Positions 32,411 to 44,883 of a stretch of DNA of 64,000 bases are shown here, in pieces (the stretch's first letter is position 1; each line of letters starts with the position of its first letter). The stretch comes from Butyricicoccus sp. OM04-18BH (lineage in GTDB: Bacteria > Bacillota > Clostridia > Oscillospirales > Butyricicoccaceae). The notes below the pieces were generated by a model. It was given only the letters and a program-made list of their open reading frames with translations, had not been told where the DNA came from and searched no databases. Position numbers and translations under genes: made by a program. The stretch covers positions 70,215 to 134,214 of the forward strand of contig NZ_QULN01000005.1 of assembly GCF_003481705.1 (NCBI RefSeq), in the 5' to 3' direction.

Positions 32411-32509
32411 TGCATTCCGCCGGTTTTATGATATAATGTATATGTGCATGAGATTTGTTGAGCGAGCACATACCGGGGACTCAGTATCGGTATGTGCTTT
32501 TTTATTTTT
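32411..32509 (+). promoter_or_regulatory. Promoter and terminator-containing leader of the GDPD gene (putative GlpP-type attenuator)
   Basis: -35 TTGCAT (32411-32416), 16 nt, -10 TATAAT (32433-32438). The leader has GAGATTTG (32451-32458) and then a strong terminator, AGCACATACCG (32466-32476) pairing with CGGTATGTGCT (32489-32499) before a U-rich tract, all ahead of the ribosome site at 32514. A terminator between promoter and gene implies antitermination. In B. subtilis the glpTQ phosphodiesterase operon is controlled this way by GlpP. An inverted repeat gcggaatgca/tgcattccgc also spans the -35. Confidence 0.7.
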
Positions 32510-32528: not shown

Positions 32529-33278
32529 ATGAAAAAGGTCATGCTGCTCGCGCACCGCGGTTTCTCGGGCAAATACCCGGAGAACAGCCCGCTCGCATTC
32601 CACAAGGCGGTCGAGGAGACCGGTGCAGACGGCTTTGAGAGCGACGTTCATATCACGAAGGACGGCAAGCTCATTATTTTCCATGATGCTTCGGTCGAGC
32701 GCACCTCGAACGGCACCGGCTTCATCAAGGACCATACCTACGAGGAGATGCTCGAGCTGGACATCGGCTCCTGGAAGTCCCCCGAATTCGCAGGACAGCA
32801 CATCTGGACGTTTGACCAGCTGCTCGATTTCTGCGACGAGACCAATATGCTGCTCAATATGGAGCTGAAGAACTACGAGGTATTCTACGAGGGTCTGGAG
32901 CAGCGCGTCATCGACGCCATCTCCGCGCACAAGATGCAGGACCGCGTATTCGTCTCCTCCTTCAACCATATTTCCATGCAGAAGTTCAAGGAGCTCTGCC
33001 CGGACATCAAGACCGGCCTGCTCTACGACAAGCCGTACCTCGACATCGACAAGTACATCGAGCGCTCCAACGCGGACAATATGCACCCGCGCTATATGCT
33101 GCTCCAGTATCAGCCGGAGCTGGTTGACCTGTACCACAGCCGCGGCATGAAGGTCAACACCTGGACGGTAAACGACGAGGAAAATATGCGCGATATGATC
33201 CACCGCGGCGTTGACGCCATCATTTCCAACCACGCAGATGTACTCTGCCGCGTCGCAGCCGAGGAAGGCGTTCACTAA
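32529..33278 (+). CDS. Glycerophosphodiester phosphodiesterase
   Basis: A 249-residue TIM-barrel enzyme that hydrolyses deacylated phospholipids (glycerophosphodiesters) to glycerol 3-phosphate and an alcohol. It begins LLAHRGFSGKYPENSP (catalytic HRG and the PEN motif) and continues GFESDVHITKDGKLIIFHD (metal ligands Glu/Asp and second catalytic His). There is no signal peptide, so it acts on imported substrate. It is monocistronic, with a leader terminator suggesting G3P-dependent antitermination, and it ends at an intrinsic terminator. Confidence 0.95.
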   Translation: MKKVMLLAHRGFSGKYPENSPLAFHKAVEETGADGFESDVHITKDGKLIIFHDASVERTSNGTGFIKDHTYEEMLELDIGSWKSPEFAGQHIWTFDQLLDFCDETNMLLNMELKNYEVFYEGLEQRVIDAISAHKMQDRVFVSSFNHISMQKFKELCPDIKTGLLYDKPYLDIDKYIERSNADNMHPRYMLLQYQPELVDLYHSRGMKVNTWTVNDEENMRDMIHRGVDAIISNHADVLCRVAAEEGVH

Positions 33279-35248: not shown

Positions 35249-35593
35249 TTATAACGACTTGGTCGCGACGATATTGACGTCCGTACCGAGAATGTTCTCC
35301 GCGAGGACCGCGCCGACCCTGACCGGACTTTTCGCGGTGATGCCGTCGAGCAGGTGCATACATTCGAACATCTTCTCCTTCGGGAGCGGCTTGTCGGTCT
35401 TGACCGGCAGGCGCGGCACCGCAGCGCCCTCGATCCTGACGGTCGAGGTGATGACGCGGACCGGGTGCTGAAGCTCGTTCCTGCCGTAGATCTCGCCGCG
35501 CGGACAGCCGTTGCCCGTTACCTTATAGCCGTTTTCCTCATCTACCGAAAGGCGGCAGCCCTTGGGGCAGGTAATGCAGATAATGTTGGTCAT
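35249..35593 (-). CDS. DUF1667 cysteine-rich protein, partner of G3P dehydrogenase flavoproteins
   Basis: A 114-residue protein beginning IICITCPKGCRLSVDEENGY. Cys6, Cys9, Cys13 and Cys29 (NGCPRGEIYG) probably bind an iron-sulfur cluster or zinc. DUF1667 proteins are encoded beside the two flavoproteins of the clostridial glycerol-3-phosphate dehydrogenase-like set and may act as a small electron-transfer subunit (GlpC-like role). Its start overlaps the upstream flavoprotein stop (ATGA). Confidence 0.88.
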   Translation of the reverse strand: MTNIICITCPKGCRLSVDEENGYKVTGNGCPRGEIYGRNELQHPVRVITSTVRIEGAAVPRLPVKTDKPLPKEKMFECMHLLDGITAKSPVRVGAVLAENILGTDVNIVATKSL

Positions 35594-36852
35594 GCCTGTT
35601 CCTCCTCAACCGATACCGTGACTGCGCCCTGTGCCTTTTCGAGCAGGACGCGCGGCAGCTTGATGTTTTCCATCTCGCCCGGCGCCATATGCTCGCGGCG
35701 GAAGGACGCGATCTGTGCGCCCGTTTCGTCCCTGACCGTGATGCGGCTCGCGCCGCAGATTGCGCGGACGCGGAAGAATACATCTGCGCCCGTGAAGTCT
35801 GTGTCCATACGGACGTGCTGCGGCACGGTGTAGCCGACGAGATTGCCGTTCCTGATGTCGAGCGTTCTGCCCTCGGCGGTCTGCTTGCCTGCGCAGTACG
35901 CAGCGGCAGCCCTGCCTGCGCGGGCCGCTTCGGCGGTTACGAAGTCGACCAGATCATGTACGTGCAGCACGTTGCCGCAGGCGAACACGCCCGGAATCGA
36001 GGTCTCCATGTTTTCGTAGACGACCGGGCCGTTGGTGCGCGGGTCCATCTGAATATCCGCGCCGCGGCTCAGCTCGTTCTCCGGGATAAGGCCGACCGAC
36101 AGCAGAACGGTGTCGCAGTCGAAGGTCATCTCGGTGCCCGGGATCGGGCGGCGGTCCGGGCCGACCTCGGAAACAACGACGCGCTCGACGCGGTCCCTGC
36201 CCTGAATGTCCGAAACGGTGTGGGAGAGATAAAGCGGAATGTCAAAGTCATTGAGGCACTGCACGATGTTTCGCGTCAGACCGCCGGAATACGGCATGAC
36301 CTCGATGCAGGCGAGCACCTTCGCGCCCTCGAGCGTCATGCGGCGCGCCATGATGAGACCGATGTCGCCCGAGCCGAGAATGACGACGCGCCTGCCAACC
36401 ATGTAGCCCTCGATATTAAGGTAGCGCTGCGCCGCACCGGCGGTGAAAACGCCTGCCGGACGGGTGCCCGGGATGGCGATCGCGCCGCGGGTGCGCTCGC
36501 GGCAGCCCATCGCGAGGATGACGGCCTTTGCCTCAAGGTCCTCATAGCCGCCCTCGGAGGAGACGATGTGAACGTGCTTGTCCGGGGTGATATCCAGCAC
36601 CATGGCGTCCAGACGGACGTCAACGCCGGTCTGACCTACCATGTCGATGAAGCGCCCGGCATACTCCGGGCCGGTCAGCTCTTCCTTGAAATAGTGCAGA
36701 CCGAAGCCGTTGTGGATGCACTGGTTGAGGATGCCGCCCAGCTCGCGGTCGCGCTCGACGATGCAGATCGAGCGGCAGCCTGCTTCCCATGCGGCATTTG
36801 CAGCGGACAGGCCTGCCGGGCCGCCGCCGATAATCACGAGTTCGTATTTCAT
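35590..36852 (-). CDS. FAD/NAD(P)-dependent oxidoreductase (GlpB-position flavoprotein)
   Basis: A 420-residue two-dinucleotide-domain flavoprotein. The FAD motif is IIGGGPAGLSAANAAWEAG (residues 7-25), the NAD motif is VVILGSGDIGLIMARRM (about 155), and the C-terminal FAD-closing motif is GVFACGNVLHVHDLVDFVTAEA. It should pass electrons between the dehydrogenase subunit and NAD(H) or another carrier. Start 36852 overlaps the upstream stop (ATGA) with GGGAGG upstream; the next gene overlaps by ATGA as well, so the three proteins are made in coupled fashion. Confidence 0.88.
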   Translation of the reverse strand: MKYELVIIGGGPAGLSAANAAWEAGCRSICIVERDRELGGILNQCIHNGFGLHYFKEELTGPEYAGRFIDMVGQTGVDVRLDAMVLDITPDKHVHIVSSEGGYEDLEAKAVILAMGCRERTRGAIAIPGTRPAGVFTAGAAQRYLNIEGYMVGRRVVILGSGDIGLIMARRMTLEGAKVLACIEVMPYSGGLTRNIVQCLNDFDIPLYLSHTVSDIQGRDRVERVVVSEVGPDRRPIPGTEMTFDCDTVLLSVGLIPENELSRGADIQMDPRTNGPVVYENMETSIPGVFACGNVLHVHDLVDFVTAEAARAGRAAAAYCAGKQTAEGRTLDIRNGNLVGYTVPQHVRMDTDFTGADVFFRVRAICGASRITVRDETGAQIASFRREHMAPGEMENIKLPRVLLEKAQGAVTVSVEEEQA

Positions 36853-38291
36853 GCCAGTGTGCCTCCCTTGGTGGTGCCGATCAGAATAAAGGTGCCGTCG
36901 CCGTCCTGCTGAATATCGAGCGGACTGCATCCAAGCTCACGCGCGAGAATATCCAGCACGCGCGGGCCGCAGAAGCCGCCCTGACAGCGGCCCATGCCCG
37001 AGCCTGCGCGGCGCTTGATGCCGTCGAGCGAGCAGGGCGGAATGGGAGAGTGGATAGCGGCGACGATCTCGCCCTCGGTGATGGTCTCACAGCGGCAGAT
37101 GACGCGGCCGTAGCGCGGGTCCTTCGCGATGAGAGCCGCCTTCTCCTCGTCGGAGAGCTGCTTGAAGCGGATCTGCTCGCGTCTGCCGTTCCACTCGTCC
37201 TTCTTTTCGAGGACGATGCCCATGCTTTCGAGCAGCTCGGCGGCATACTCCGCGATCGCGGGCGCTGCGGACAGACCGGGAGACTTGATGCCGGCAATAT
37301 GCAGCAGGCGCGGCATATTCTTCGCCGGGCGGATGATGAAGTCGCTTTCGCTCGTGTTCGCGCGGACGCCTGCGAAATTGCGGATGGACTGGCGGAAATC
37401 GATCGACGGAACGCTCCTGCGGCTGGTCTCCGCGACGAAATCCATGCCGGAGAGGGTGTTTTCCCTGCTGTCCGGCGCGTCGACATCGACTGCGTTCGGG
37501 CCGACGATCAGATTTCCGTGCACGGTGGGCGAAACGAGGACGCCCTTGCCGAGCCTGTTCGGGCACTGGAAGATAACGTGGCTGACCAGATTGCCGCTCG
37601 ACTTATCGAGCAGGTAATACTCGCCGCGCGACGGCTGCGCTTCCCACTCGGTCTCGCCGGTCATCGCGCAGATATCGCCGCCCCAGCCGCCGGCGCAGTT
37701 GACGATAACGCGGGTCTTGTAGTCGCCGGAGGCGGTATGTACGAGCACGTAGTCCCCCTTGTCCTCGATGCCGGTCACTTCGCTGCGGAGTTTCAGCTCG
37801 ACTCCGTTGCGCACGGCGGTCTCCGCCTCCGCGATGCACAGGCCCCACGGGTCGATGACGGCGGCGGACGGCGCGTACAGCGCTGCGACAACGTTTTCCG
37901 CGAGGTTCGGCTCCATCTCGTGCGCCTCCTTCGCGTCAAGGATGCGCAGACCCGGCACGCCGTTGCGGACGCCGTTTTCGAGCAGGTGCTCGAGGTGCTG
38001 CTTCTGCTCCTCATCGAACGCCAGAACGAACGAGCCGATGCGCTTGTAGCCAACCGACAGGTCGCTGCACAGCTGCTCCATGACCTCCGAGCCGCGAACA
38101 TTCAGCTTTGCCATGAGCGTGCCGTTCTCCGGGTCGTAGCCCGCGTGAACGATGGCGCTGTTGGCCTTTGTCGTACCCATGGCAACGTCGTTCTCGCGCT
38201 CGAGCACGAGCACGCGCAGCCTGTACTGCGAGAGCGTATAGGCAAGCGATGCGCCGACCACGCCGCAGCCCACGATGGTTACATCATACAT
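36849..38291 (-). CDS. GlpA-like FAD-dependent glycerol-3-phosphate dehydrogenase with [2Fe-2S] domain
   Basis: A 480-residue DAO-fold dehydrogenase. FAD motif VTIVGCGVVGASLAYTLSQY is at residues 4-23, followed by substrate-side motifs NSAIVHAGYD and HIAGIKSPGLSAAPAIAEYAA. A BFD-like domain at the end has CRCETITEGEI and GMGRCQGGFC, four Cys for a [2Fe-2S] cluster. This is the anaerobic GlpA layout, oxidising G3P to dihydroxyacetone phosphate; a 2-hydroxyacid substrate is an alternative. ATG 38291 follows CGGAGGG. The operon leader has a terminator with a putative GlpP site. Confidence 0.85.
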   Translation of the reverse strand: MYDVTIVGCGVVGASLAYTLSQYRLRVLVLERENDVAMGTTKANSAIVHAGYDPENGTLMAKLNVRGSEVMEQLCSDLSVGYKRIGSFVLAFDEEQKQHLEHLLENGVRNGVPGLRILDAKEAHEMEPNLAENVVAALYAPSAAVIDPWGLCIAEAETAVRNGVELKLRSEVTGIEDKGDYVLVHTASGDYKTRVIVNCAGGWGGDICAMTGETEWEAQPSRGEYYLLDKSSGNLVSHVIFQCPNRLGKGVLVSPTVHGNLIVGPNAVDVDAPDSRENTLSGMDFVAETSRRSVPSIDFRQSIRNFAGVRANTSESDFIIRPAKNMPRLLHIAGIKSPGLSAAPAIAEYAAELLESMGIVLEKKDEWNGRREQIRFKQLSDEEKAALIAKDPRYGRVICRCETITEGEIVAAIHSPIPPCSLDGIKRRAGSGMGRCQGGFCGPRVLDILARELGCSPLDIQQDGDGTFILIGTTKGGTLA

Positions 38292-38313
38292 ACTTTTCCC
38301 TCCGTTTTCCCAA

Positions 38314-38448
38314 CAAAAAAAGCCAAAGCAACCACCCCGCAGTGCATTCGCTCTGCGGCAACGGCTTACTTTGACTCTAATCTCACAAGCAAACATACAT
38401 ATTCACTTTCGCTATTTTCAATATAGCACAGCTTCTGTCAGATTGCAA
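38314..38448 (-). promoter_or_regulatory. Promoter and antiterminator-type leader of the G3P dehydrogenase operon
   Basis: On the minus strand: -35 TTGCAA (38443-38448), 17 nt, -10 TATATT (38420-38425). Then comes the motif GAGATTAGAGTCA (38372-38384). Its AGTCA starts the 5' arm AGTCAAAGTAAGCC of a terminator whose 3' arm is GGTTGCTTTGGCT followed by seven T (to 38314). The ABC operon leader at 39428-39506 has the same motif in the same place. The arrangement is what GlpP-controlled antitermination requires. Confidence 0.75.
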
Positions 38449-38520
38449 GCGATTTCTTTTGAGCAGAATCGCTAAAAGGGCGGCAAAAATTTTTATCTGC
38501 CGTTTCAGTGTGCCGATATT

Positions 38521-39090
38521 TTAGATCTCCCACAGCTCGGGCTTTGTCGTCGAGACCGCCTGCGCGCCGGCGGAGAGCGCCGCGACGACGTCCTGCTTGT
38601 CCGAGAGCAGGCCGCTCGCGATGATCGGCTGGCGGATCTGCGGCTTCAGCCGCTCGAGCACGCGCGGCATGGTGCCCGGGAGCAGATCGACCGCGTCCGC
38701 GTTCGAGCTTTGGCGCAGCACAGTATCAAACGAGAGCGAGTCGAACAGGAAAAAGCGCTGAATGGTCAGCATGCCGAGCGCCTTGGCGCGGCGGATGATG
38801 TTCGGGCGGGTCGAAATGATGCCGTCCGCCTGCGTGTTCTGCGCTATGAAATCCGCGGTGATGTCCCGCGCGGTCAGACCCTCGATCAGGTCGGCGTGGA
38901 CGAAAACGATCTTGCCCGCCTGCTTGACCCGCTCGACGTGCGAGGCGATGTTCAAAATCGTACCGTACAGAAAAAATACGGTCGTGCAGTCGCTCGCGAT
39001 AGCCTTTTCGAGTCCCTCGTCGCTTTTGAGCGCCGCGATCACCGGACAGTCCTGAAGAGCGTCCAGAAACCTCTCTCTCTTGTGTTCCAT
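38521..39090 (-). CDS. glpP: Glycerol-3-phosphate-responsive antiterminator GlpP
   Basis: A 189-residue TIM-barrel-like RNA-binding regulator. Characteristic segments are LQDCPVIAALKSDEGLEKA near the N-terminus, FLYGTILNIASHVERVKQAGK, VHADLIEGLTARD, DGIISTRPNIIRRAKALGM and DLLPGTMPRVLERLK. In B. subtilis GlpP with bound G3P prevents termination in the leaders of glpFK, glpD and glpTQ. ATG 39090 has GGAGG upstream. It has its own promoter, and its neighbours on both sides are the likely targets. Confidence 0.93.
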   Translation of the reverse strand: MEHKRERFLDALQDCPVIAALKSDEGLEKAIASDCTTVFFLYGTILNIASHVERVKQAGKIVFVHADLIEGLTARDITADFIAQNTQADGIISTRPNIIRRAKALGMLTIQRFFLFDSLSFDTVLRQSSNADAVDLLPGTMPRVLERLKPQIRQPIIASGLLSDKQDVVAALSAGAQAVSTTKPELWEI

Positions 39091-39150
39091 TCTTGTATCC
39101 TCCATCGGCGCGGCTGCCGCCGCACCTCGTTTTTTCAAATCGGTATCCTC

Positions 39151-39180
39151 ATTATAGCATATCTCGCGGCAAAACCGCAA
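39151..39180 (-). promoter_or_regulatory. Promoter of glpP
   Basis: On the minus strand -35 TTGCGG (39175-39180), 18 nt, consensus -10 TATAAT (39151-39156) with an upstream TGC giving an extended -10. Confidence 0.65.
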
Positions 39181-39369
39181 CCGCCCCGGTGATGCTGCAC
39201 AGACGGCGCTCCATCCGGCAGGCGCAGCTCAGTAAATCTGCACAAATATCATCCCGCTGATTTTACGCGCGGAAGGGTTGGTACTGCTTTTTCTTCGTCA
39301 TCTTGCATAAAGTATATGTTCGTTTTATGTTAGATTTGTGTAAAAAGTCAACTTCTTGCCATTTTTCAC

Positions 39370-39506
39370 TTGCACACCCCCGAAGGGCGTGCTATACTGA
39401 GGTCAAGGTTAAGGAATGTTGCTTTCAGAGATTTGAGTCAGGGTAACATGGGCGTGCTTTTCCGAGCGGGAAAGAACTGTCATATGTTATATCTGGCTGT
39501 TTTTTT
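39370..39506 (+). promoter_or_regulatory. Promoter and antiterminator-type leader of the ABC importer operon
   Basis: -35 TTGCAC (39370-39375), 17 nt, -10 TATACT (39393-39398). The leader carries TTGCTTTCAGAGATTTGAG and the motif GAGATTTGAGTCA (39428-39440). AGTCAG (39436-39441) and TAACAT pair with ATGTTA and CTGGCT (39493-39498) to form a terminator ending in seven T. The motif and its overlap with the terminator arm match the dehydrogenase operon leader. The gene starts 110 nt further on. Confidence 0.75.
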
Positions 39507-39616
39507 GTCCTTTTCGGGGGAAACAGCGCGTTCCGAAATGAGTTGTGCCGGCTCCGGTCGATGAAGAGAGAGCATCCTTCCGGACGGGCGAAAGAAAAAA
39601 GGGGTGTAAGAATTCA

Positions 39617-40462
39617 ATGTTCAAAATGCTCAATCCGAAACGCTTCTACCATGCGGTAGGCAGACGCAAGTTCCTTGAATTTGTCCTGCTCGCGGCGTTT
39701 ATCCTGTTCTTCTACGGACCGATGATCAATATGCTGATGCTCGCCTTCGCAAACGAGTATCAGGCTCCGGCCATCCTTCCGCAGCAGTGGGGTTTCAAAT
39801 GGTGGAGCTACGTATTCAGCCAGAAGAGCCTCGTTTCCTCGATCACGCAGTCCTTCATCGTGGCGATCATCACCACCGGTGTTTCCATGGTGCTTTGTAT
39901 CCCGGCGGCGTACTCCATCGCACGCTTCAAGTATCCCGGCCGTAAGATGTTCATGCTGTCCTTCCTGCTGACCAACGCATTCCCGAAGCTCGGCATCTAC
40001 ACCTCCATCGCGGTCCTGTTCTACAAGTATAACCTGATGGGCACCTACACCGGCGTTGTCATCATCCACATGATCAACTCCATGATGTTCATGGTATGGC
40101 TCCCGTCGAGCGCGTTCCGCGCGGTGCACCGCCAGCAGGAAGAAGCGGCGCGTGATGTCGGCGCAGGCCCCATCCGCACCTTCTTCAAGGTAACGCTCCC
40201 GATGGCGATGCCCGGCATCTCGGTCGCAACGCTCTACACCTTCCTCGGTTCGATGGAAGAGGCACAGGGCACCATGCTCGTCGGTATGGCAAGGGTTCAG
40301 ACCATGCCGGTCGCAATGTACGGCATCGTGCTCGACTCCTCGGCGGTCCAGATCGGCGCGGTATTCGCTATCCTGCTGATCATCCCGTCCGCACTCATGA
40401 TCTTCGCAATGCGCAAGTACATCGGTCCGGAAGCAATCTCCGGCGGCTTCAAGATGAAATAA
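39617..40462 (+). CDS. ABC transporter permease (PotC/MalG-type)
   Basis: A 281-residue inner-membrane permease with six helices and the cytoplasmic EAA motif EEAARDVGAGPIRTFFKVTLPMAMPG (residues about 175-200) that docks the ATPase. I start at ATG 39617 (MFKMLNPKRFYH) behind GGGGTG; upstream codons are non-family. First gene of a permease-ATPase-binding protein-permease operon. The promoter/leader and the flanking phosphodiesterase genes suggest a glycerophosphodiester or G3P importer, but the sequence alone also fits polyamine- or sugar-type importers. Confidence 0.88.
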   Translation: MFKMLNPKRFYHAVGRRKFLEFVLLAAFILFFYGPMINMLMLAFANEYQAPAILPQQWGFKWWSYVFSQKSLVSSITQSFIVAIITTGVSMVLCIPAAYSIARFKYPGRKMFMLSFLLTNAFPKLGIYTSIAVLFYKYNLMGTYTGVVIIHMINSMMFMVWLPSSAFRAVHRQQEEAARDVGAGPIRTFFKVTLPMAMPGISVATLYTFLGSMEEAQGTMLVGMARVQTMPVAMYGIVLDSSAVQIGAVFAILLIIPSALMIFAMRKYIGPEAISGGFKMK

Positions 40463-40502: not shown

Positions 40503-41474
40503 ATGAGCGAACGTAAGATCAAGCTCCAGATCAAGGATATGACCAAAAAGTACGACAACGGCGACGGTGTCGAACACATCAACCTCGATATTTACGAAGG
40601 TGAGATCGTCACCTTCCTCGGCCCCTCCGGCTGCGGCAAGACCACCATCCTGCGCACCATCGGCGGCTTCCTCGACGTCACGAGCGGCGATATCACCATC
40701 GACGGCCAGTCCATCATCGGCCTGCCCCCCGAGAAGCGCCCGACCGCAATGGTGTTCCAGAGCTACAACCTGTGGCCGCACATGACCATTTACGAAAACC
40801 TCGCCTTCGGCCTCAAGCTCCGCAAGGTGCCCAAGGCTGAGATCGACGCAGACATCAAGAAGATGCTCGCTCTCGTATCCATGAGCGGCTGCGAGAAGAA
40901 GTATCCGAACCAGATGTCCGGCGGCCAGCAGCAGCGCATCGCCATCGCGCGCAGCCTGCTTCTCAAGCCCTCCCTGCTGCTGCTCGACGAGCCGTTCTCC
41001 GCGCTCGACGCGAAGATCCGTCAGCAGATGCGCGAGGAGCTGAAAAAAATCCAGAGCGACCTCGGCATCACGGTCGTATTCGTAACCCACGATCAGGAGG
41101 AGGCCATGTCCCTCTCCCACCGCATCGTCGTTATGAACAAGGGCAAGTTCGAGCAGATCGGCACCCCGACCGAGATTTACGACAAGCCGGCGACCCGCCA
41201 CGTTGCTTCCTTCATCGGCGAGATGAACTTCATCGACAAGGACAACAAGACCATCGCCGTCCGTCCGGAGGACGTTACCGTTTCCATCGACGGCACGGGC
41301 GACTTCACCGGCACCGTCCGCACCATCATGGTGCTCGGCCACTACGTTGTCGTAAACGTACAGCGCGGCGACAACGTTATCAAGTGCTTCGTTGACCGCG
41401 ACATCAGCGAGAAGCTGTCCGTCGGTCAGACGGTCGGCATGCACATCGGCAAGCATACCGTTTTCGACAAGTAA
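40503..41474 (+). CDS. ABC transporter ATP-binding protein (PotA/UgpC-type)
   Basis: A 323-residue ATPase. Walker A is GPSGCGKTTIL (residues about 40-50), Q-loop MVFQSYNLWPHM, signature MSGGQQQRIAIARSL, Walker B LLLLDEPFSALD and H-loop VTHDQEEAM. A C-terminal TOBE-type domain (residues about 240-323) gives the CUT/MOI-type architecture of UgpC, MalK and PotA. It energises the importer with the two permeases of the operon. AGGAGG precedes the ATG. Confidence 0.94.
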   Translation: MSERKIKLQIKDMTKKYDNGDGVEHINLDIYEGEIVTFLGPSGCGKTTILRTIGGFLDVTSGDITIDGQSIIGLPPEKRPTAMVFQSYNLWPHMTIYENLAFGLKLRKVPKAEIDADIKKMLALVSMSGCEKKYPNQMSGGQQQRIAIARSLLLKPSLLLLDEPFSALDAKIRQQMREELKKIQSDLGITVVFVTHDQEEAMSLSHRIVVMNKGKFEQIGTPTEIYDKPATRHVASFIGEMNFIDKDNKTIAVRPEDVTVSIDGTGDFTGTVRTIMVLGHYVVVNVQRGDNVIKCFVDRDISEKLSVGQTVGMHIGKHTVFDK

Positions 41475-41603: not shown

Positions 41604-42785
41604 ATGAAACTGAAGAGATTAGGTTCGATCTTCCTTGCAGCAGCAATGATGACGGCAGCCCTCACCGGCTGCGGCGGCGGTTCTTCGAAGGACAGCAACG
41701 GCGGCGACTCCGCTTCCGGCGGCAAGTCCACTGTTACTCTGTGGGCAACCGGTTCGGACAACGTCCGCTCCATCTTCGAGAAGCTGACCGAGGATTTCAA
41801 CACCAACTCCGAATACAAGGACCAGTATCAGGTTGAGCTGCAGTTCATGCTCTCCGGTACCGGCGCGCAGGGCCTCGCAGACATGGTAGCAGCTGCCGGC
41901 AAGGCAGGCCAGACCAACACCGATTACGACATCGTTGACTGGAGCGGCGACGACCTGGCAAAGATCATGTCCAAGATCGGCGAGGAGTCCTTCGTAAAGC
42001 TCGACAAGTCCAAGATCCCGAACGCTGCATCTGTTGAGGCGAAGAGCGCGGTCGCGCAGGATTACGCTCAGCCGTACCGCGGCACCACCGTTATCCTTGC
42101 CTACGACTCCGAGAAGGTTCCGAACCCGCCCAAGACCATGGACGAGCTGGTTGAGTGGATGAAGGCGAATCCGGGCCGCTTCGCTTACAACGCTCCCGGC
42201 ACCGGCGGCGCAGGCGACTCCTTCGCTCGCACCTCGGTCTACAACTTCCTGCCGGAAGAGGCTATCACCTCCGGCGACGAGAAGTGGGTCGGCGAATGGG
42301 ACAAGGGCTTCGAGTTCCTCAAGTCCATCCATCCGTACATGTACAAGTCCGGCGGCTCCATCGTTTACCCGAACAAGAACCAGGGTACTCTGGACCTTCT
42401 GAACCAGGGTGAGATCGACATGTGCCCGAACTGGGCTGACATGGTCCTGAGCCAGCGTGCACAGGGCGCCATCAAGGACACCATCAAGATCACCCAGATC
42501 GACCCGTCTCTGACCGGCTCTTTACAGACTCTGACCATCCCGACCTTCGGCTCCAACGAGGAAGGCGCTTACGCATTCATGAACTACATGCTCTCCGAGC
42601 AGGCACAGCAGATCATGGTCAACGACATGGCCGCTATCCCGCTGATCGACACCAGCAAAATGGATATGACCGGTTATGAGGATCTCCAGGGTCTGGACGT
42701 TTCCAACTTCCGCATCCTGTCCATCGGCGACCTCGGCACCCAGTTCAACGAGCGCTGGGACAACGAGATCGGCTCCATCGGCTAA
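41604..42785 (+). CDS. ABC transporter substrate-binding lipoprotein
   Basis: A 393-residue lipoprotein. The signal peptide ends in the lipobox LTGCGGG (Cys about 23), followed by a Ser/Gly/Asp linker and a periplasmic-binding fold starting TVTLWATGSDNVRSIFEKL. The segment YNAPGTGGAGDSFARTSVYNFLPE resembles YnjB-like and polyamine/iron-type binding proteins. The ligand is not identified; context favours glycerophosphodiesters or G3P. AAAAAGGAG precedes the ATG. A strong hairpin follows the stop, which would favour higher levels of this subunit. Confidence 0.88.
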   Translation: MKLKRLGSIFLAAAMMTAALTGCGGGSSKDSNGGDSASGGKSTVTLWATGSDNVRSIFEKLTEDFNTNSEYKDQYQVELQFMLSGTGAQGLADMVAAAGKAGQTNTDYDIVDWSGDDLAKIMSKIGEESFVKLDKSKIPNAASVEAKSAVAQDYAQPYRGTTVILAYDSEKVPNPPKTMDELVEWMKANPGRFAYNAPGTGGAGDSFARTSVYNFLPEEAITSGDEKWVGEWDKGFEFLKSIHPYMYKSGGSIVYPNKNQGTLDLLNQGEIDMCPNWADMVLSQRAQGAIKDTIKITQIDPSLTGSLQTLTIPTFGSNEEGAYAFMNYMLSEQAQQIMVNDMAAIPLIDTSKMDMTGYEDLQGLDVSNFRILSIGDLGTQFNERWDNEIGSIG

Positions 42786-42883: not shown

Positions 42884-43729
42884 ATGAGTAAAACCCTGAA
42901 GCAAAAGCTGGTCGCTTATGCACTGGTTCTGCCGGCGTTTCTCGTCGTTATGCTGACCGTTGCCTATCCGATCGTTTCCGCTGTCATCCAGAGCTTTCAG
43001 GATGAAAAGACCGGCGCTTTCACGCTCGCAAACTACGCATACTTCTTCACCGAGCCTGCACAGCGCATGAACATCCTGTACACGCTGTTCGTCGTTATCG
43101 CGACCGTCGTCATCGCGCTGGTCGTGGCCTACCTGCTTGCGCTCTATCTGCGCTTCGTCCATTCGGGCATCGCAAAGAGCATCGGCACGCTGTACCTCCT
43201 GCCGCGTTTCGTACCGGCAATGTGCGCGGTTTACGCCATGATCACGATCATCCGCGACTCCGGTCTCATCAACCGCATCGGTCTGCACTTCGGCATGAAC
43301 CTCAAGCTCGGCCTGATGTACCACGCAAGCGGCATGATCATCATGAACCTCTGGTTCAACATTCCGTTTGCGGCAATGATGATTACCGCCGGCCTGGGCG
43401 CGATCCCGGACAGCATCATCGAGGCTGCTCGTGATGTTGGCGCAGGCAAGTTCAAGGTGTTCACCTCCATGATCCTGCCGCTGTCCCTCAAGGACGTCAT
43501 CATCGCAGGCACGTTCGTATTCATGACCAACGTCGGTTCGTTCACTACCCCGTACCTGATGGGCGGCAACTCCCCGAAGATGCTGGGTATCGCGCTGTTC
43601 GACCAGTTCAACAAGTATCTGGCCTACAACCGTTCGGCCGCGCTGTCGGTCATCATGTTCCTGCTCTGCTCGGTTTCCGCAGGCGTGTATATTTACACCA
43701 ACCTCAAGGAGAAGGACTGGGAGCAATAA
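42884..43729 (+). CDS. ABC transporter permease (PotB/MalF-type)
   Basis: A 281-residue permease with six membrane helices, starting MSKTLKQKLVAYALVLPAFL, and the EAA motif IEAARDVGAGKFKVFTSMILPLSLKD (residues about 183-208). It pairs with the permease at 39617 to form the membrane channel. GAGGGGA precedes ATG 42884. It is the last gene of the operon and is followed by two hairpins, the first a strong terminator. Confidence 0.9.
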   Translation: MSKTLKQKLVAYALVLPAFLVVMLTVAYPIVSAVIQSFQDEKTGAFTLANYAYFFTEPAQRMNILYTLFVVIATVVIALVVAYLLALYLRFVHSGIAKSIGTLYLLPRFVPAMCAVYAMITIIRDSGLINRIGLHFGMNLKLGLMYHASGMIIMNLWFNIPFAAMMITAGLGAIPDSIIEAARDVGAGKFKVFTSMILPLSLKDVIIAGTFVFMTNVGSFTTPYLMGGNSPKMLGIALFDQFNKYLAYNRSAALSVIMFLLCSVSAGVYIYTNLKEKDWEQ

Positions 43730-44101: not shown

Positions 44102-44199
44102 TTGTTCGGCGGGGCGGTTTTGATTATAATTAGGCGTGGGAGCGTTTTGGGGCTTCCGTGTATTTTAGATTTCCGTATATTTTGGATTTCCGTGGGAGG
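44102..44199 (+). promoter_or_regulatory. Promoter and tandem-repeat leader of the second GDPD gene
   Basis: -35 TTGTTC (44102-44107), 17 nt, -10 TATAAT (44125-44130). The leader ends in a 17-nt direct repeat, TTCCGTGTATTTTAGAT (44154-44170) and TTCCGTATATTTTGGAT (44171-44187), with a third partial unit TTCCGTGGGAGG that merges into the ribosome site. No leader terminator is seen, unlike the other G3P-related operons. Confidence 0.6.
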
Positions 44200-44208
44200 T
44201 TGATTCTC

Positions 44209-44883
44209 ATGTCAGATAAAACTCTAATCACTGCGCATTCCGGCTCGGACGGTACACCGGACAACTCGCTTGCCTGTGTTCGGTACGCCCTTTCGACCGA
44301 CGCAGACGCGTTCGAGGTCGATGTGCGCCGCCTTGCGGACGGAACGCTCGCGCTCGGCCACGATGCCGCCGACCATACCGCGCCGACACTGCGCGAGGTG
44401 CTTGCCCTCGCCGCCGCAAAGCCCGGCGTGCGCATCAACTGCGACCTCAAGGAACGCGGCCTTGAACCGGCTGTCGCGGCGCTCGCCGCCGAATGCGGCA
44501 TGGCCGGCCGCCTCATCTTCTCCGGCTCGGTCGATGTTAACATCTTCGCCGCGCACCCCGAGCTGCACGACTGCGCCGAGGTCTACCTCAACATCGAGGA
44601 GTACGTCCCCGACCTCTACCTGAACTACCGCAACATTCCGGATTTCGAGCTGACCGCCGCCGAGATCATCACGAAAGTCTGCCGCGAACACGGCATCGCG
44701 ACGGTCAACATGAATCAGGTGCTCATCACGCGCCGCTTCATCGAAACGCTGAAGGACAGCGGCATCGCCCTTTCCGCCTGGACGGTCAACGAGGAGATTT
44801 TCCTCGACTGGTTCCTCACGCAAGGCGTCCGCAACATCACGACGCGCAGACCTGCACGCGCACTCCGTCTGCGCGACAGGTAG
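44209..44883 (+). CDS. Glycerophosphodiester phosphodiesterase-family protein, variant active site
   Basis: A 224-residue GDPD-fold protein. The first motif is TAHSGSDGTPDNSLACV where canonical enzymes have AHRG..PENT, so the Arg is replaced by Ser. The Glu/Asp metal ligands (FEVDVRRLADGT) and the second His (LGHDA) are kept. The middle region DLKERGLEPAVAAL and the end SAWTVNEEIFLDWFLTQGVRNITT are typical. Activity or specificity may differ from the paralogue at 32529. GGGAGG precedes ATG 44209. Confidence 0.85.
   Translation: MSDKTLITAHSGSDGTPDNSLACVRYALSTDADAFEVDVRRLADGTLALGHDAADHTAPTLREVLALAAAKPGVRINCDLKERGLEPAVAALAAECGMAGRLIFSGSVDVNIFAAHPELHDCAEVYLNIEEYVPDLYLNYRNIPDFELTAAEIITKVCREHGIATVNMNQVLITRRFIETLKDSGIALSAWTVNEEIFLDWFLTQGVRNITTRRPARALRLRDR

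Follow-up and report, generated by a model that had tools for sequence, protein, structure and literature searches.

A twin-GAG hairpin overlapping intrinsic terminators as the probable RNA site of the glycerol-3-phosphate antiterminator GlpP beside a clostridial glpP gene

Antitermination by GlpP at the glpD gene of Bacillus subtilis was reportedly described by Glatz et al. in 1996 and 1998. Among other protein-dependent systems, regulators of the BglG/SacY/LicT type hold a short hairpin, the ribonucleic antiterminator (RAT), which overlaps the 5′ arm of a terminator, the targets of ANTAR regulators consist of two adjacent small hairpins, and TRAP reads triplets that are repeated in a leader. 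The available parts of two papers treat GlpP antitermination at glpD as established (PMC9604022; PMC7430163), and the second of these also describes LicT with its antiterminator, as well as HutP, which reads NAG repeats in a leader (PMC7430163). The ANTAR protein EutV appears in the available parts of two further papers as an example of protein-dependent antitermination in which a hairpin excludes the terminator (PMC3369936; PMC3369931). Neither a consensus GlpP RNA site nor a clostridial GlpP regulon was met in the open-access literature that we searched. PMC9604022 points to a supplementary figure for a GlpP-binding site and refers to a paper of 2021 for the residues with which GlpP binds RNA, and some of the RNA definition may therefore already be in print; a term search of the main text of PMC2965389 gave no match to glp or glycerol.

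Here, we examine a 64,000-nt stretch of a contig from Butyricicoccus sp. OM04-18BH (hereafter the window, in whose numbering coordinates and strands are given), where glpP is flanked by a dehydrogenase operon, downstream of it on the same strand, and by a divergent operon for an ATP-binding cassette (ABC) importer. The locus resembles the B. subtilis GlpP system, with its targets glpD, glpFK, and glpT, in having a PF04309 protein, terminators in 5′ untranslated regions, and candidate targets in glycerol-3-phosphate (G3P) dehydrogenation and uptake, and many orthologous leaders of Bacillaceae, that is, of relatives of B. subtilis 168, carry a twin-GAG hairpin of the kind described below. It differs in its proposed targets, here the operon of a FAD/[2Fe-2S] dehydrogenase, the ABC importer, and a gene for a glycerophosphodiester phosphodiesterase (GDPD), and in the leader sequence, as the second GAG is followed by UCA in most sites of our clostridial type (R1-type, below). 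A short hairpin overlapping the terminator 5′ arm is shared with RAT systems, but the neighboring regulator belongs to another family and the conserved letters lie in a twin-GAG loop. Tandem hairpins of the ANTAR type were not met in the folds of leaders cut before the terminator 3′ arm, each of which forms one hairpin; the dehydrogenase leader adds a stem-loop of 4 bp further along. Triplets are repeated as in TRAP and HutP leaders, but here there are just two, inside a covarying hairpin.

We propose that each leader is a two-state RNA switch. The nascent leader would form a short hairpin with two GAG triplets in its loop (of the GGAGA-N3-GAG type), and the 3′ strand of this hairpin, from about the second GAG onward, would double as the 5′ arm of an intrinsic terminator. 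By default the far more stable terminator would win, and transcription would end ahead of the operon. GlpP carrying G3P (its binding, the dependence on G3P, the direction of control, and the importer's substrate are what we infer from sequence) would recognize and hold the twin-GAG hairpin, and the ensuing readthrough would switch on the dehydrogenase operon, the importer operon, and the GDPD gene, giving a route from glycerophosphodiesters through G3P to dihydroxyacetone phosphate. We are strongly inclined to accept such control of three leaders in the window, and we regard the twin-GAG hairpin as very probably the RNA target by which GlpP turns these operons on. The leaders display two mutually exclusive structures, a conserved loop, a covarying stem, an overlap with the terminator, co-occurrence with glpP, and targets of the glp type. 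GlpP antitermination in B. subtilis has been known since the 1990s; our additions are the consensus RNA and the clostridial importer–GDPD–dehydrogenase regulon. A covarying hairpin with a fixed loop offers a testable candidate binding site by which G3P regulons could be read from sequence across Bacillota, and it brings an uncharacterized ABC importer together with a dehydrogenase and a pair of GDPD-type genes in one proposed pathway of gut Clostridia.

A first-pass annotation of this DNA had noticed a shared motif, GAGATTNGAGTCA, in the leaders of the two operons flanking glpP, and had suggested that it would define the RNA site of a clostridial GlpP. The window contains exactly two copies, both sitting on the 5′ arm of a terminator that has a U tail and neighbors glpP, and no third is found in the 64 kb even when two mismatches are allowed. 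Exact matches expected by chance number about 0.008 (2 × 64000/4^12); the two-mismatch count is not enriched (2 found vs 4.4 expected), so the weight rests on the exactness and the position of the copies. Placement of the motif on terminator arms is borne out by the full leaders, which fold as terminators at −35.5 kcal/mol (z −3.6) for the dehydrogenase operon and −33.0 kcal/mol (z −3.2) for the ABC operon; a simple terminator scan reports neither, which is consistent with its loop limit of 3–8. The order TTGCTT, motif, GTAA, also pointed out at the time, holds in both leaders. When the leaders are cut before the terminator 3′ arm, TTGCTT pairs with GTAA around GAG...GAG in both, so that the three parts are the 5′ stem arm, the loop, and the 3′ stem arm together with the terminator arm. 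The twin GAG lies at 38384–38382 and 38377–38375 in the loop region of the dehydrogenase hairpin, where UGA and UCA are also predicted to pair, and at 39428–39430 and 39435–39437 in that of the ABC hairpin, a region that is partly paired in the predicted fold. These short hairpins do not exceed shuffled sequences in stability (z −0.9 and −0.6 for the two leaders), so their support comes from comparison and not from energy. Rfam has no family at the leaders; its only match in the window is a tRNA, the best E value within 38250–39640 is 4.4, nothing scores above the gathering score, and 11 loci gave 0 matches.

As a definition of the element, the exact string was rejected. It has no match in the first five glpP relatives, whose leaders carry GAGCCA or GAGTCT, and among 229 loci it occurs outside the window only in L012 and L037, which are one and the same site. 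The shared leader layout thus stands, while the string is too narrow; what is conserved is the twin-GAG hairpin loop, with TTGCTT and GTAA as its stem. The closest of the five loci from a GlpP scan of genome contigs belongs to an Agathobaculum metagenome-assembled genome (78% identity), and its ABC leader, GUUGCUU-CA-GAGAUUGUGAGCCA-AGGUAAC, keeps the layout with changed letters. GlpP scores above the cut-off in 20 of 87 family genomes; the layout is found beside glpP in many of these 20, and at both flanking operons in six (L011, L013, L014, L018, L015, and L017), with diverged stems. A covariance model built from 17 sites with terminator pairs only (R1) gave 21 matches in 13 of the 87 genomes at E ≤ 0.1, comprising 11 of the 20 glpP-positive and 2 of the 67 glpP-negative genomes; at E ≤ 0.01 the counts are 11/20 vs 1/67 (p = 6e-8). 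Beyond the training set, R1 matches on contigs without glpP precede a dehydrogenase gene (L043, L045, and L051) or an ABC permease gene (L050).

Support for the hairpin comes from covariation. For the arm-swap test, which like the doublet test below used a custom simple scoring, sites were picked by twin GAG and terminator with the stem ignored, and R1-type sites were taken from the consensus model. Over 80 dereplicated sites, a site's own arms form 5.16 bp vs 3.45 bp for swapped arms (0 of 20,000 permutations, z 13), and 40 sites at a 50% threshold give z 9.0. The effect is smaller for R1-type sites alone (1/20,000 for n = 18 and 28/20,000 for n = 12); an earlier parse of these, with some terminator arms misparsed, gave 0 and 8 of 5,000. 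In A5, a MAFFT alignment of 28 diverse leaders that was not fitted to structure but whose members were selected by the twin-GAG pattern, covariation of the antiterminator helix is 0.468 vs 0.194 ± 0.037 (0/500 shuffles), above all slid versions, with double changes at 6/6 pairs and 62.5% of cells paired. For the terminator helix, an alignment of 25 sites fitted to the terminator structure (A3) has 85% of cells paired and a covariation of 0.320 vs 0.208 (0/500 shuffles). Another MAFFT alignment, of the core alone (A1), was set aside with its 5′ arm misaligned.

The best-surviving alternative, to which we give a minor chance, is that GlpP, like TRAP or HutP, recognizes the twin GAG in unpaired RNA and blocks the terminator by covering its 5′ arm, while the hairpin only presents the loop. 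In keeping with this, doublets at these terminator arms are by far most often of GAG, which ranks first of 64 triplets with 80 terminators in 64/137 loci (median 1); AGA (67 terminators), GGA (31), and TGA (26) overlap GAG. The stem is also short and often broken, as the share of paired cells in A5 indicates; that GAG hardly varies in A5 carries no weight, this pattern having been the basis on which the alignment was selected. The strong arm covariation over 80 sites and the double changes at every A5 pair argue that the paired state is selected. The doubled GAG may point to a pair of contacts, perhaps made by two subunits.

The element extends beyond the family. In Bacillaceae (29 genomes), GGAGA-N3-(G/U)GAGA sits inside a hairpin in many leaders of glpF and glpD, with the second GAG opening the terminator arm. 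In many Bacillaceae leaders of these genes, e.g. L063, L065, and L083, AAGTTAATA stands just upstream of the hairpin, and this 9-mer is present in 16/30 loci. A scan for GAG doublets with an overlapping terminator, in which no stem is required, gave 36 sites in 23/30 Bacillaceae glpK loci (reversed control 2), 23 sites in 16/37 Oscillospirales glpP loci (reversed control 1), 18 in 17/30 Bacillales glpP loci (reversed control 2), and 16 in 14/30 Bacillota glpP loci (reversed control 1), counts that include some chance sites (e.g. L102 and L075) and, in Bacillaceae, many loci that are close kin. Such sites near glpK are found in 11/15 glpP-positive vs 1/10 glpP-negative genomes, and the stem of the latter is 2 bp. 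At order level, model R2 was run on 394 genomes with 10 candidates per genome scored; at E ≤ 0.05 it matches in 9/76 glpP-positive vs 0/318 glpP-negative genomes (p = 2e-7), adding one good new site, before a dehydrogenase gene (L086). Model R3, which derives from A5, was applied to Bacillales genomes outside the training set, 20 of them glpP-positive and 10 glpP-negative, some of them close kin of training genomes (e.g. G494) and one, G530, counted as negative though it has a sub-cut-off match. At E ≤ 0.1 it gives 16 matches in 12/20 vs 0/10 genomes (p = 0.0016), and at E ≤ 1 17/20 vs 3/10 genomes are matched. The initial reading of the leaders as antiterminator targets is supported in this respect, as orthologous leaders carry the layout and it follows glpP, being unequally distributed between genomes with and without the gene under both R1 and R3.

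The regulon had at first been described as comprising the two flanking operons. Both are retained, and a third leader of the same kind had been overlooked, before the GDPD gene at 32529, with its twin GAG at 32450–32452 and 32460–32462. The product of this gene would, by family (PF03009), yield G3P. When GDPD orthologues were sought in the 87 family genomes irrespective of their leaders, 18 genomes had one at E ≤ 1e-50, and 9 of the 10 orthologues of 72–90% identity are preceded by a twin-GAG terminator leader in which the stem sequence differs. In G030, G031, and G032 the GDPD gene lies directly behind glpP on the same strand; the GDPD gene of L003, inspected for a leader, sits directly behind another gene. 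This third target speaks for the proposed switch.

Several observations weigh against it. Stems are often just 4–5 bp long, and RNAalifold predicts no structure on A5, perhaps as a result of two competing, exclusive structures. The specificity of the twin-GAG scan is weak: it reports five sites in the window, of which three are chance-like, with no convincing stem, and misses the ABC leader. The genuine-looking ones are the dehydrogenase leader and 32450 (+), just before the GDPD gene, and the window's chance rate (~3 per 64 kb) would yield ~5–8 sites per set, which is harsher than the reversed controls. Coverage is partial as well. R1 has no match in 9 of the 20 glpP-positive family genomes, three of which have a diverged twin-GAG leader (L021, L023, and L027) while in the other six none was found within 1.5 kb of glpP; at order level, 67/76 glpP-positive genomes are without an R2 match, and one R2 match in a glpP-positive genome (L087, E 0.028) is due to chance. 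R3 gives only E 2.9 on the window's dehydrogenase leader, plus one other weak match, and thus barely detects this clade, so that a clostridial model and one of the Bacillus type cannot stand in for each other; neither R2 nor R3 matches the window's GDPD leader. The element is absent from one close GDPD orthologue (L235) and from all those at 57–59% (0/4) and 37–40% identity (0/4). Finally, some leaders occur in genomes where glpP is not found. R1 matches two of these: G059, in which the match is at a contig end and the genome has the ABC system (83% identity), and G015, whose leader looks intact and which lacks both glpP and the ABC system. A good twin-GAG GDPD leader lies in G046 (L236, ~1418, minus strand), the result of either an incomplete assembly or a leader that has outlived glpP. 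In G516, R3 matches before glpD (L217, ~1501, minus strand; E 0.82) a stretch with a best stem of 1 bp, possibly a relic, unless glpP is missing from the assembly.

The intact-looking leaders of G015 and G046 would also fit a leader that acts by itself, with no need of GlpP, as a small riboswitch sensing G3P or some related metabolite. We consider this very improbable, given that a single hairpin of ~30 nt tracks glpP in independent data sets and precedes genes that the available part of PMC9604022 names as B. subtilis GlpP targets; moreover, G015 also lacks the ABC system that neighbors glpP in relatives, as if a contig were missing, and the stem in G516 is lost, as for a relic. Least probable of all, the leaders would be constitutive attenuators of an ordinary kind or the product of a recent duplication with no role in regulation. 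Duplication could produce two near-identical copies in one window but not readily the diverged stems at both flanking operons of six other genomes or the same element before other glp genes in other orders.

The genes and sites of the window are collected in Table 1. GlpP has relatives in the PDB (3kts and 1vkf). The top NCBIfam match of the dehydrogenase is type 2 G3P oxidase (NF033460), at 329 bits under a cut-off of 460. For the solute-binding protein, PDB relatives are weak and of the maltose-binding type, and no NCBIfam model matches above its cut-off. The importer had been tied to G3P in the first pass; its place in the proposed regulon is kept, but glycerophosphodiesters are at least as likely a substrate as G3P, given the GDPD genes in the same regulon. 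GDPD-like genes also lie 3′ of permease 2 in L001:4744-5553(−) and L004:4587-5246(−), as read from lists of open reading frames; together with the window, this arrangement suggests uptake of glycerophosphodiesters. In G028, a gene for a PIG-L family deacetylase (L014:338-1147(−)) is placed between the leader and the ABC genes. The ABC ATPase follows on the same strand ~1.2 kb past it (the match reads over one TAA), so this site probably heads an ABC operon too, and the deacetylase is possibly a hint to the importer's substrate.

Table 1. Genes and predicted regulatory sites of the window discussed in the text
Feature	Position	Strand	Basis
GDPD leader, third candidate antiterminator, stem UAUGUGC/GCACAUA	32441..32472	+	twin-GAG scan and cut-leader fold
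Intrinsic terminator before GDPD gene	32464..32503	+	fold, −23.6 kcal/mol, z −2.2
GDPD, proposed third regulon gene	32529..33278	+	PF03009, 168 bits
DUF1667 protein, dehydrogenase operon gene 3	35249..35593	−	PF07892
Pyridine nucleotide-disulphide oxidoreductase, dehydrogenase operon gene 2	35590..36852, start inferred from frame	−	Pyr_redox_2 (longer frame to 36930)
FAD-dependent dehydrogenase with BFD [2Fe-2S] domain, G3P-dehydrogenase/oxidase-like	36849..38291	−	Pfam DAO and Fer2_BFD
Intrinsic terminator, dehydrogenase operon; 5′ arm starts at second GAG (GAGUCAAAGUAA)	38315..38377	−	fold; compensatory helix changes in A3
Predicted antiterminator hairpin, dehydrogenase operon, stem GUUUGCUU/AAGUAAGC	38364..38394	−	cut-leader fold; arm swap on related sites
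Motif copy GAGATTAGAGTCA, dehydrogenase leader	38384-38372	−	exact match
Promoter-like site, dehydrogenase operon, TTGCAA-17-TATATT	38420..38448	−	consensus scan only; one of three candidates
glpP, glycerol-3-phosphate responsive antiterminator	38521..39093	−	PF04309, 206 bits (longer frame 38521-39180 scanned)
Promoter-like site, ABC operon, TGCACA-16-TATACT	39371..39398	+	consensus scan only
Predicted antiterminator hairpin, ABC operon, stem AUGUUGCU/GGUAACAU	39416..39449	+	cut-leader fold
Motif copy GAGATTTGAGTCA, ABC leader	39428-39440	+	exact match
Intrinsic terminator, ABC operon; 3′ arm ..UCUGGCU, followed by a G and a run of seven U	39436..39506	+	fold
ABC permease 1	39617..40462, start inferred	+	PF00528 (longer frame 39545-40462)
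ABC ATPase	40503..41474	+	PF00005
Solute-binding protein	41604..42785	+	SBP_bac_8
ABC permease 2	42884..43729	+	PF00528
Second, weaker GDPD-type gene after ABC genes	44158..44883	+	PF03009, 41.5 bits; co-transcription inferred

Across genomes, the twin-GAG terminator hairpin also precedes glpF, glpD, glpK, glpT-like, glpP, and lipase-like genes, in both Bacillales and Clostridia. The 26 R1/R2 sites (L087 excluded) have downstream of them 14 dehydrogenase genes, 9 ABC permease genes, the PIG-L gene of L014, and 2 contig ends. A downstream frame is present at 114 sites, and Pfam was run on 61 of the proteins, those of the R1/R2, Oscillospirales, and Bacillota sets, giving 28 DAO, 9 ABC permease, 8 GlpP, 4 MIP, and 3 FGGY, with abhydrolases and DUF6905 among the others; downstream genes in the Bacillaceae and Bacillales sets, read by eye, are mostly glpF and glpD. 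The 16 R3 matches at E ≤ 0.1 precede 7 glpF, 5 glpD, 1 glpP, 1 GlpT-like (L222), and 1 alpha/beta hydrolase gene (L209), with 1 at a locus end (L205); nine of these proteins were run against Pfam, and the remainder, including the GlpT of L222, were assigned by reading the translation. The Bacillus targets agree with the B. subtilis GlpP targets named in the available part of PMC9604022. We lean toward regarding the element as an uncatalogued class of antiterminator read by GlpP from Bacillales to Clostridia, with each GAG possibly contacted by one GlpP subunit, and with new members that would include the ABC importer for glycerophosphodiesters and the GDPDs, a membrane-anchored alpha/beta hydrolase, DUF6905, and, in some lineages, glpP itself.

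The hydrolase behind the R3 match in Bacillales (L209:1676-3082(+)) looks membrane-anchored and esterase- or lipase-like, and hydrolases of this kind also stand behind Oscillospirales scan sites (L107:3-1040(−), L096:3-1043(−), and L104:719-1099(−)); the L209 and L107 proteins are 53% identical, and a further alpha/beta hydrolase is placed likewise at L134:2333-3517(+). Such a hydrolase is likely a new GlpP target, perhaps freeing glycerol from lipids, and would connect, in other lineages, a lipase-like enzyme with the use of glycerol phosphate. The element lies before glpP (PF04309) in L093, L094, L096, L100, L104, L108, L111, and L158, and also in L202, which suggests autoregulation in those genomes; upstream of the window's own glpP (39094–39420, minus strand) there is no GAG doublet. 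Small DUF6905 proteins are encoded directly behind the element in L149:925-1320(−) and L158:950-1378(−), an arrangement that would link this family of unknown function to the G3P regulon.

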